Below, one piece after another: positions 40,302 through 60,876 of a stretch of 64,000 bases of DNA. How positions within the stretch are numbered: position 1 is the first letter of the stretch; each line of letters begins with the position of its first letter. The notes beneath the pieces were generated by a model. The model was given only the letters and a program-made list of their open reading frames with translations. It did not search any database and was not told the origin of the DNA. The translations under genes were made by a program, and so were the position numbers. Origin of the DNA: an uncultured Cohaesibacter sp. (lineage in GTDB: Bacteria > Pseudomonadota > Alphaproteobacteria > Rhizobiales > Cohaesibacteraceae); assembly GCF_963676485.1 (NCBI RefSeq), contig NZ_OY781114.1, positions 4,232,501 through 4,296,500 on the forward strand, read 5' to 3'.

Positions 40302-40377
40302 GTGCCCGTAGCTCAGTTGGTAGAGCATCCGACTTTTAATCGGACGGTCGAAGGTTCGAATCCTTCCGGGCATACCA
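40302..40377 (+). tRNA. tRNA-Lys (anticodon TTT), copy 1
   Basis: A complete 76-nt cloverleaf with encoded CCA. The acceptor GTGCCCG pairs with CGGGCAT (G-U at position 1), the D arm is GCTC...GAGC, the anticodon arm TCCGA-CTTTTAA-TCGGA gives anticodon TTT, and the T arm is GAAGG-TTCGAAT-CCTTC. Confidence 0.97.
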
Positions 40378-40505
40378 ATTTCCCCGCAATTTGAAATGCT
40401 TATCAGCCTTTCCTAAGTGAGGAATGGATTGGTTCTGCTTTTTGTTGTGGTTAGGTTTTCTTGGCAAATTTGTTGTAGAAAACCAAATTTAGCGGAATTC
40501 ATTGC

Positions 40506-40533
40506 TCGACTGGGTAAAAAATTCTGCTACAAG
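40506..40533 (+). promoter_or_regulatory. Promoter-like element of the second tRNA-Lys(TTT)
   Basis: TCGACT (40506-40511) and TACAAG (40528-40533) keep the same 16-bp spacing as the promoter of copy 1, 57 bp before the tRNA. The second copy may thus have its own promoter. Confidence 0.4.
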
Positions 40534-40589
40534 GGTCCGGCCTTTAACGGTAAGGCAACACGATGGTTTTACCATCGATTTTGGAATAT

Positions 40590-40665
40590 GTGCCCGTAGC
40601 TCAGTTGGTAGAGCATCCGACTTTTAATCGGACGGTCGAAGGTTCGAATCCTTCCGGGCATACCA
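40590..40665 (+). tRNA. tRNA-Lys (anticodon TTT), copy 2
   Basis: All 76 nt are identical to the copy at 40302, including the encoded CCA, while the flanks differ. The two starts are 288 bp apart. Confidence 0.97.
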
Positions 40666-40881
40666 TTCCCTCTCTCCCCCTCAAATCATTGAAATGACTA
40701 AGAAGATGCTCTGCGTGTCCGCACGCGTTTTTTGTCTGATGAAGGGATTTTACAAAAAAAATCAATAAAACGGTGCAGAACACCCGAAACCGTATTATCG
40801 CGTATATTGATTTTTTCTCCGGCTCTGGTAAAAGACTGTCATCAAATTGATAAACAAGACATCACGTTTTGTTTTGGTTAA

Positions 40882-40957
40882 GCGCCATTAGCTCAGCTGG
40901 TAGAGCATCCGACTCTTAATCGGACGGTCCAAGGTTCGAACCCTTGATGGCGTACCA
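40882..40957 (+). tRNA. tRNA-Lys (anticodon CTT)
   Basis: A 76-nt cloverleaf with encoded CCA. The acceptor GCGCCAT pairs with ATGGCGT, the anticodon loop CTCTTAA gives CTT (reads AAG), and the T arm is CAAGG-TTCGAAC-CCTTG. A weak TTGATT-16-TAAAAG promoter lies at 40807-40834. Confidence 0.97.
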
Positions 40958-59263: not shown

Positions 59264-59324
59264 GGCTTTTTTATTTTTCATTATGCATTTTTGCGTAATA
59301 CTTTTGGCGATGCACAATCGGGCC

Positions 59325-59377
59325 AAATCTCGAGAAAATAGTCAAGCATTTGAAATTACAATATTTTCTCGAGATTT
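59325..59377. repeat. Perfect 16-bp inverted repeat with internal TCTCGAGA palindromes
   Basis: AAATCTCGAGAAAATA (59325-59340) is repeated in inverted orientation at 59362-59377, with a 21-nt spacer. Each arm itself contains the 8-bp palindrome TCTCGAGA, and the two palindrome centres are 39 bp apart. No T-run follows, so it is not a standard terminator for uvrA. A paired operator or a cruciform/RNA stem are both possible. Confidence 0.75.
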
Positions 59378-59716
59378 CTCAGCCTGTCGTTGTGCGCATT
59401 GATTCATATCATGCAAAAAGTGCTATTTGTGCCGCGTTGCAAAATTCATCATTTCAAATATTTCGTTTTGCTGATTTTTTGTCTCAAGATTTCTGCTTTT
59501 CACAGGCCCCCGGCTCTTGATCGGTTGCAAATAAGTACTAGTGCTTATAGTTATGAATTTGAAAAAGATAGTCTCTATATTCTATAACTATCTGAAATTA
59601 TAGATATTTTTCTAGAGAATCCCTTTTGCTATGCGAAATTCGTGGAGCGCTAAAATGAGTAGTTGTTGTTTTGCATGCTCCGCAAGACAGCTATGCATTT
59701 TTTTGCAGTGCAAATA

Positions 59717-59745
59717 TTGGGAGTCATTTGCTATCTATTTATCAA
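59717..59745 (+). promoter_or_regulatory. Candidate promoter of the DUF1127-sRNA unit
   Basis: TTGGGA (59717-59722) and TATCAA (59740-59745) are 17 bp apart, 88 bp before the DUF1127 ATG. I looked for an EcfG (GGAAC-N17-GTT) or RpoH-type promoter and did not find a good match. The assignment is weak. Confidence 0.25.
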
Positions 59746-59777
59746 CAACAACGAGATGTTGACTACATAACGAAACG

Positions 59778-59795
59778 TCATCTCATTTGAGATGA
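59778..59795. promoter_or_regulatory. 18-bp palindrome in the DUF1127 leader
   Basis: TCATCTCA-TT-TGAGATGA is a perfect 8-bp inverted repeat with a 2-nt centre, 38 bp upstream of the DUF1127 ATG. It could be an operator or, if transcribed, a 5'UTR structural element. Confidence 0.4.
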
Positions 59796-59833
59796 GAAGT
59801 CACTTGAAGGTTCGGCAACGTAGGATCGATAAG

Positions 59834-59983
59834 ATGCTTGATACAGTTGTTCAGAATTATCGGCAGTGGCGCAATTTTCGTGACACGGTCGATAATCTTA
59901 ATCGTCTGTCCAATAGAGAATGCGAAGTGAGCATTTCTCGCGCAGACGTGACGCAGACTGCAAGACGTGCAGTTGGTATGTAA
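59834..59983 (+). CDS. DUF1127 small Arg-rich protein (CcaF1-like)
   Basis: This is a 49-residue basic protein with the DUF1127 pattern. An aromatic/Arg-rich helix (YRQWRNFRDTVDNLNRLSNRE) is followed by the ISRADV motif, matching the usual LSDRELADIGISRADI. The ATG at 59834 has TAGGA 8 nt upstream. In Rhodobacter the DUF1127 protein CcaF1 is an RNA-binding regulator co-transcribed with CcsR sRNAs. Here the coding region is likewise followed, 16 nt after the stop, by hairpins with anti-Shine-Dalgarno loops. The role by analogy is stress or envelope regulation. Confidence 0.8.
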   Translation: MLDTVVQNYRQWRNFRDTVDNLNRLSNRECEVSISRADVTQTARRAVGM

Positions 59984-59999
59984 AACATTTATAGGAATC

Positions 60000-60106
60000 C
60001 AGACTTTCTCCTCCTCCCGAAAGTCTGAGACGTTTCGAAACGAATCCTCCCCGTTTTGAAACACCCTTAGAAGCCCACCGGACCTCCTCCCCCGGTGGGC
60101 TTTTCT
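60000..60106 (+). ncRNA. Cuckoo/CcsR-type sRNA: three hairpins with CCTCC loops, last one terminator
   Basis: There are three consecutive hairpins. The first (60000-60027) has a perfect 9-bp stem and loop TCCTCCTCCC. The second (60032-60062) has an 11-bp stem with one G-U pair and loop AATCCTCCC. The third (60073-60100) has a perfect 9-bp GC stem, loop ACCTCCTCCC, and then TTTTCT, making it the terminator. The loops are complementary to Shine-Dalgarno sequences. CcsR/'cuckoo' RNAs of alphaproteobacteria share this loop motif and are processed from transcripts with a DUF1127 gene. The 5' end is not determinable and may arise by processing of the upstream mRNA. Confidence 0.78.
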
Positions 60107-60255
60107 AATTCTTGTCTCTCAAATTGATAGAATAAGAATTCAGGAGCTTGGAGTTTCTCGCATGCACTTCTTGCTATGAGAAATCGGCCTCCAACCAGCT
60201 TTATATATCTGATAAGGAGGCCGCACTTCCGAAAAGGATCTACTTTGATGAAGCT

Positions 60256-60876
60256 CTAGCCTCTGGCTGGCGATTCCGCCATCCAGTCTTCCAGTGGCTT
60301 GATTTTGGGGAAAACACCATTGTCGTAAATCCAGCTGTCCACTGCATAGCGTTTGTCATTCTTGGTGTCGAGCACAACGGCCGTTGCGTGCGGATAGCGA
60401 CCATCAAGGAAGAACCCCCTTGCGACCGGGGATTGGACCTTGTGGTATTTGAGGAAGCCATGCTGCTGCGCAAAGGAGATCAGAGATGTGGTGTTGCTGG
60501 CCTCATCGATGCAATCCATCTGGCCGGGCACGCCAGCATTTCTCATATCCAAGCCGCCCTTGTCCTTGTCTGATCCAACGAAGGGCCCAACGCGTTTTTC
60601 AAACCAGGCGACGGCGTTGCCTATGGCCTTGCGCTCTGCCTTGGGGCTTTTGTCTCCGGCTTTCAGAATTCTTTTGAGCTTTGCGAGATCTTGTTTTGTA
60701 AAACGATAGCCATATTGGAGCGTGCAGCCGAAAGCGTGGCAAATATAAATGGTGGTCTTGGTCGGCGCGCGATTGTTCATGGCGCTGATCCAGCCACTGG
60801 TCGAGCCTGTCGTCTGCGGGGTGCAGGCAGCCAATGCAATCAGGACGGGAATTGTTGTTAAGATTTTGAATTTCAT
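60256..60876 (-). CDS. Lipoprotein with possible Cys-His-Asp hydrolase triad
   Basis: This 206-residue exported protein has a lipobox, LIALAAC, with Cys18 as the lipidation site. No named family is recognised. The distal half has MDCIDEASNTTSLI (Cys122), YPHATAVVLD (His163) and YAVDSW (Asp180). Order and spacing are reminiscent of transglutaminase- or papain-like cysteine enzymes, so a peptidase or amidase role is conceivable but unproven. Cys46 and Cys51 may form a disulfide. ATG 60876 is chosen because it starts the signal peptide. It faces the DUF1127-sRNA unit across about 150 bp. Confidence 0.7.
   Translation of the reverse strand: MKFKILTTIPVLIALAACTPQTTGSTSGWISAMNNRAPTKTTIYICHAFGCTLQYGYRFTKQDLAKLKRILKAGDKSPKAERKAIGNAVAWFEKRVGPFVGSDKDKGGLDMRNAGVPGQMDCIDEASNTTSLISFAQQHGFLKYHKVQSPVARGFFLDGRYPHATAVVLDTKNDKRYAVDSWIYDNGVFPKIKPLEDWMAESPARG

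Follow-up and report, generated by a model that had tools for sequence, protein, structure and literature searches.

An alpha-r14 small RNA directly behind a DUF1127 gene and a conserved VtlR/LsrB-type box in Cohaesibacter

An alpha-r14 (ar14) small RNA lies directly behind a short DUF1127 gene in the window (the whole 64,000-nt stretch of Cohaesibacter DNA that was analysed), and a conserved box of the VtlR/LsrB type precedes the gene. We consider it probable that this RNA, which is NfeR1-like and of the cuckoo/CIN1 type, forms the 3' end of an LsrB/VtlR-activated DUF1127 mRNA and represses mRNAs led by GGGAGGA. An LsrB/VtlR-like regulator of the LysR type would bind the box at 59683-59697 and switch on transcription at about 59743, and the transcript would be translated into a 49-aa DUF1127 protein. 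RNase E, as in the case of CcsR, would then cleave the transcript close to the stop codon, leaving the 3' part as a stable sRNA that ends at hairpin 3. The three loops of this RNA would present UCCUCCC and block initiation on mRNAs with GGGAGGA. The cleavage and repression steps are drawn by analogy with CcsR/CcaF1 and NfeR1.

The element itself is one more alpha-r14 RNA, and the main features of the locus are separately already in print: the hairpin RNAs, their DUF1127 association, the link of VtlR to DUF1127 genes and the control of NfeR1 by LsrB. The LsrB-DUF1127-ar14 operon as a whole was not found in the literature searched, which contained only a minority of subscription papers. It seems to us an evenly balanced proposition that the box is more or less a private switch of DUF1127-ar14 operons, through which a redox-responsive regulator would yield, from one transcript, both the DUF1127 protein and a three-headed anti-Shine-Dalgarno (anti-SD) RNA that lowers GGGAGGA-led uptake systems. 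If true, one circuit would join the activation of DUF1127 genes by VtlR, that of NfeR1 by LsrB and the travelling of DUF1127 with anti-SD RNAs. One operon with one box would explain this co-travel, together with LsrB/VtlR control of either partner according to species.

The family assignment is secure. From the letters of the DNA, an anti-SD sRNA of the cuckoo/alpha-r14/CcsR type had been predicted here, and a covariance-model search bore this out: the element at 59994-60107 on the + strand reaches 77.2 bits with Rfam RF02344, whose cut-off is 58.8, along the entire model (1-123), and the E-value for the whole window is 3.6e-12. The three successive hairpins predicted at 60000-60106 are present. 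Hairpin 1 (60000-60027) pairs 60000-60008 with 60019-60027 around the loop TCCTCCTCCC at 60009-60018, and hairpin 2 (60032-60062) pairs 60032-60042 with 60052-60062 around AATCCTCCC at 60043-60051, both being supported by the fold and by compensatory changes. Hairpin 3 (60067-60108), supported by fold and conservation, pairs 60067-60081 with 60092-60108 around ACCTCCTCCC at 60082-60091. The element folds at -46.8 kcal/mol, whereas shuffled sequences average -22.5 (sd 3.1; z = -7.8), and none of 200 shuffles equalled it.

All three loops share the core UCCUCCC, which is exactly complementary to the Shine-Dalgarno sequence GGGAGGA. Loops 1 and 3 carry CCUCCUCCC exactly; loop 2 is shorter, reads AAUCCUCCC and holds TCCTCCC without the full CCUCCUCCC, a shortening also found in other ar14 copies. 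On the + strand of the window, exact CCTCCTCCC occurs only twice, both times inside the element, and three of the six occurrences of TCCTCCC fall there as well; the - strand holds no CCTCCTCCC and two TCCTCCC. Hairpin 3 is the presumed terminator, consistent with the ar14 family. Its core is followed by TTTTC only, and a terminator scan of the window, in which loops were limited to 8 nt, did not list it. We also observed that the 5' arm of hairpin 2 together with one preceding base (60031-60042) forms a perfect palindrome, CGTTTCGAAACG, kept in 9/9 orthologs; since it is both perfect and conserved, this position might instead form another small hairpin or engage in RNA-RNA pairing.

The structure was examined in a sample of 41 genomes (the genome of the window, 17 of the genus, 2 of the family and 21 of the order), which yielded a list of 64 ar14 matches, with 42 above the cut-off. 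We aligned all 42, which gave 34 distinct rows. Across this alignment the three-hairpin structure is paired in 95.6% of 910 cells, compared with 87.7% for shuffled alignments and at most 55.4% when the partners were slid, and 16 of 27 pairs are changed on both sides, where shuffling gave 8.0. None of 500 shuffles reached any of five measures. The count was made on all 42 copies because a first set of 30 had been hand-picked; that set, which left out ten copies from groups already represented and two divergent tandem copies (G018:C1:3556150 and G034:C16:82203), gave a similar outcome, with 17 of 31 pairs changed on both sides. A free run of RNAalifold recovered all three hairpins from the 30 copies and hairpins 2 and 3 from the 42; hairpin 1 drops out of the larger set owing to weak pairing in the divergent G018 and G034 copies, which contribute most of the unpaired cells of a hairpin that is 89.3% paired over the 42 copies. 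The stem set taken from minimum-energy folds was set aside as a pairing test, being circular for that purpose; the same folds show three CTCC-bearing loops in 40 of the 42 copies. The stems thus covary while the loop cores are kept, in line with the original prediction, and the objection that the loops might not be conserved in relatives falls away.

That prediction had also raised a distinct architecture, one unit with three loops. We rejected this because it matches what the passages concerned say of the alpha-r14 family: three hairpins with an anti-SD loop in each and variable stems (PMC10746234, PMC7143759), and multicopy CCUCCUCCC RNAs with three or four hairpins appeared in print in 2011 in a section of PMC3927594. 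Among the closest known systems is alpha-r14/NfeR1 (Smr14C2) of Sinorhizobium meliloti, which shares the three anti-SD hairpins, the variable stems, the multiple copies per genome and an LsrB/VtlR-type site upstream. The two differ in that NfeR1 is described with its own promoter (in the relevant part of PMC10746234), whereas the RNA of the window apparently makes up the 3' portion of a DUF1127 unit; in addition, loop 2 in the window has UCCUCCC only, and the upstream box follows the VtlR form rather than TGCA-N6-GCAT.

The DUF1127 gene that had been placed directly before the hairpins is indeed there. Its ORF (59834-59983, + strand), with the ATG at 59834 as the best choice of start, encodes 49 aa and matches PF06568 with an E-value of 3.4e-5 and 23.9 bits against a cut-off of 23.3; the end, stop codon included, is 59983, 16 nt 5' of hairpin 1. 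Summed over eight orthologs, the codon differences are 100 synonymous and 8 non-synonymous, and so the ORF is a protein gene under selection. From its stop to the start of the ar14 model there are 10 nt at the window copy and 7-10 nt across the window locus and these 8 orthologs, and the end of uvrA upstream is kept in 8/8 of them. Searched against named genomes, the protein matched at three loci, with 100% identity in Cohaesibacter marisflavi, 98% in C. haloalkalitolerans and 58% in C. celericrescens, and ar14 follows the DUF1127 gene at all three; those of C. marisflavi and C. haloalkalitolerans probably add no cases to the 41-genome set.

Loci of the CIN1/CcsR type are marked by a short DUF1127 gene immediately in front of the RNA and in the same orientation, the DUF1127 association having been named the CIN1 locus (in the part of PMC10253847 that treats it). 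In Rhodobacter sphaeroides, CcsR1-4 behind ccaF1 show the same arrangement of a DUF1127 gene directly followed by anti-SD-type sRNAs. According to the same passage, however, CcsR comprises four homologous RNAs under an RpoHI/RpoHII promoter, whereas the window has one three-loop RNA and a VtlR/LsrB-type box. RS0680a is given as a two-stem-loop transcript in the section of PMC3927594 that mentions it.

The linkage recurs within the genome and beyond it. The genome (5.08 Mb, two contigs) holds three ar14 copies over the cut-off, at 91.8, 88.8 and 77.2 bits, and one weak two-hairpin match at 31.7 bits; three of its four DUF1127 matches directly precede the three copies over the cut-off. Among the 41 genomes, 39 of the 42 copies over the cut-off and 9 of the 22 weaker matches have a same-strand DUF1127 match no more than 400 nt upstream; a rough estimate puts the chance expectation of such pairs at about 0.005, and the counts are not independent events, because many loci are orthologous. 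At one of the three exceptions (G016:C19) a DUF1127-like ORF ends 9 nt before ar14 and scores 22.2 bits against the cut-off of 23.3; at the other two, no DUF1127 ORF was found upstream by eye. Counted in reverse, an ar14 match stands behind 46 of the 120 DUF1127 matches of the 41 genomes.

Several loci depart from the simple arrangement. In tandem arrays at L051 (G019:C79) and L062 (G026:C130), 3/4 neighbouring DUF1127 genes are each followed by ar14 or an ar14-like match, as are 2/3 of those at L052 (G018:C1), and at L063 (G034:C16) a single DUF1127 gene precedes two ar14 copies. A weaker two-hairpin anti-SD RNA, closely alike in two genomes (L004:1501-1602, which is G000:C1:4475296-4475397, and L050:1223-1321), stands behind a small ORF that has no DUF1127 match. 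In L004 it is preceded by a TTGACA-like sequence overlapping the dyad GTTCACATTTAGTGAAC, and L050 has different repeats in the preceding region. At L001:1042-1359 an ar14 copy faces the end of a thioredoxin-like gene, recognised by eye from its WCGPC.

Upstream of the DUF1127 gene we found a box that the original prediction did not mention. It occupies 59683-59697, reads CAAGACAGCTATGCA on the + strand, and matches on the - strand (59684-59696) the VtlR box GCAT-N3-TG-N3-T, as published in the part of PMC7486931 that prints it; by eye, 12 of its 15 bases agree with the motif printed for Brucella in a passage of PMC12595884. The box belongs to a longer block that precedes DUF1127 with small differences in 9/9 loci: TGCAT-N5-GCA(A/G)N2CAGCTATGCAT, then GCAGTGCAAA, then CTATCT or a near form. 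The last of these is a probable -10 element, at 59731-59736 on the + strand in the window; it is conserved with small differences and is CTATAT in many other copies. In the portions of PMC7486931 and PMC12595884 concerned, a VtlR box likewise stands over small-protein genes, namely the VtlR-activated DUF1127 genes of Brucella and atu1667 of Agrobacterium; those portions mention no sRNA behind them, whereas the window locus has ar14.

The published VtlR consensus, used unfitted on 520 nt upstream of each ar14 copy (447 in one), occurs before 38 of the 42, in a single orientation, whereas the rate among shuffled sequences is 4.5%. Its looseness shows in 17 matches over the 64 kb window, counting both orientations. 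The four copies that lack it include both DUF1127-less ones. The S. meliloti LsrB motif TGCA-N6-GCAT occurs before 10 of the 42 copies and is absent before the window copy.

We fitted a tighter pattern, CAANNCAGCYATGCA, by eye, using the Brucella sequence in print together with the three copies of this genome, so that the three ar14-linked sites match it by construction. Genome-wide it has three exact matches, all before DUF1127-ar14, and the absence of a fourth is the informative part. Allowing one mismatch adds 24 sites, the reversed pattern giving 3 in all in the genome, and an Rfam scan of 17 of those 27 loci found only the three ar14. Over the 41 genomes, 29 of 46 exact matches precede an ar14 over the cut-off, many being orthologous and not independent, and the reversed pattern has a single match. 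The 17 exact matches unlinked to ar14 showed neither ar14 nor any sRNA over its Rfam cut-off; one of them (L239) has an ar15-like match of 28.6 bits, under the cut-off of 40. With up to two mismatches, the pattern lies before 40 of the 42 copies. The two DUF1127-less copies have a related block 70-73 nt before ar14, with two mismatches to the fitted pattern and outside the published consensus.

These observations bear on where transcription starts. An ar14 with its own promoter inside the DUF1127 gene, like NfeR1, would make the protein gene a mere neighbour. NfeR1 does have its own sigma-70 promoter and an LsrB site, according to the relevant part of PMC10746234, and the two DUF1127-less copies, with the related block directly upstream, point the same way. 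We nevertheless judge this arrangement unlikely at the window locus. The 7-10 nt between the DUF1127 stop and ar14, kept over the window locus and eight orthologs, are too short a gap to hold a promoter, and the conserved box precedes the DUF1127 gene. No sigma-70 promoter was found directly upstream of ar14, across the 10-nt gap of the window copy: a sigma-70 consensus scan of 59300-60300 gave no match, and it likewise missed the promoter that we propose.

For transcription from before DUF1127, the genome offers a candidate regulator. A LysR gene lies beside trxB (L094:375-1265, - strand), and its product matches PDB 9HH1 at 409 bits over the whole length. In the part of PMC11975290 that reports it, 9HH1 is the structure of A. 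tumefaciens LsrB, and the position of lsrB next to trxB is given as constant in Rhizobiales. Judged by this similarity, the genome carries an LsrB homologue. No ar15 (AbcR) over the cut-off was found in L094, which includes only 374 nt behind lsrB.

The three hairpins could instead act mainly in cis, by stabilising or terminating the mRNA or by sequestering its own Shine-Dalgarno sequence, with a minor role in trans. The close and frequent linkage of DUF1127 and ar14 and the terminator-like look of hairpin 3 would suit such a role. A single hairpin would be enough for it, but what is conserved is a set of three anti-SD loops whose stems covary; moreover, two DUF1127-less copies exist, and trans repression by NfeR1 through such loops is reported in a section of PMC7143759. 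We therefore regard a mainly cis role as improbable.

Repression in trans by the 3' end of the DUF1127 mRNA would act through the start signals of other genes. A perfect nine-base target (GGGAGGAGG before ATG) was uninformative because the genome has only 2 such sites, and it was replaced by the seven-base core GGGAGGA, which stands 4-10 nt before an ATG at 119 genome sites, against 11 for the reversed pattern. One other SD, TAAGGAG, served as the sole control; it precedes an ATG at 67 sites, against 28 reversed. We examined 73 of the 119 GGGAGGA sites, in position order, and 66 of the 67 TAAGGAG sites. Where several ATGs were possible, the farthest was taken in one batch and the nearest in the other, and ORFs under 60 aa were removed from both sets before counting (26 GGGAGGA and 16 TAAGGAG sites).

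Solute-binding proteins make up 15 of the 47 ORFs behind GGGAGGA, each checked singly (families DctP, NMT1_3, Peripla_BP and SBP), against at least 2 of 50 behind TAAGGAG (Fisher p 3e-4), the control figure coming from family tables that cover the best 25 of 29 and the best 25 of 32 families, so that a weak single member may have been missed. Nine of the 50 control ORFs were seen singly, including an SBP_bac_5 protein; a Peripla_BP_3 match was a LacI repressor and was left uncounted. The first batch alone is not significant (5/17 against 1/23, p 0.07), and the second was collected with the outcome of the first already known. The enrichment behind GGGAGGA would agree, indirectly, with the transporter targets reported for NfeR1 in passages of PMC7143759 and PMC10746234. 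That the loops bind some partner other than a Shine-Dalgarno sequence, such as the DUF1127 protein or another RNA for which they would serve as a sponge, has a precedent in CcaF1, a DUF1127 protein that binds RNA and helps to mature its own CcsR sRNAs (in the parts of PMC12501420 and PMC10253847 concerned), but seems very improbable given that the loop core complements a common SD of the genome, with its 119 sites against 11 reversed, and that no RNA binding was found for Salmonella YjiS, according to a passage of PMC12501420.

GGGAGGA is, in any case, a much-used start signal in this genome (G000), and the sites examined are rich in transport genes. Elsewhere in the window, at 40302-40954, three consecutive tRNA genes stand at near-equal spacing, and two of them score identically.
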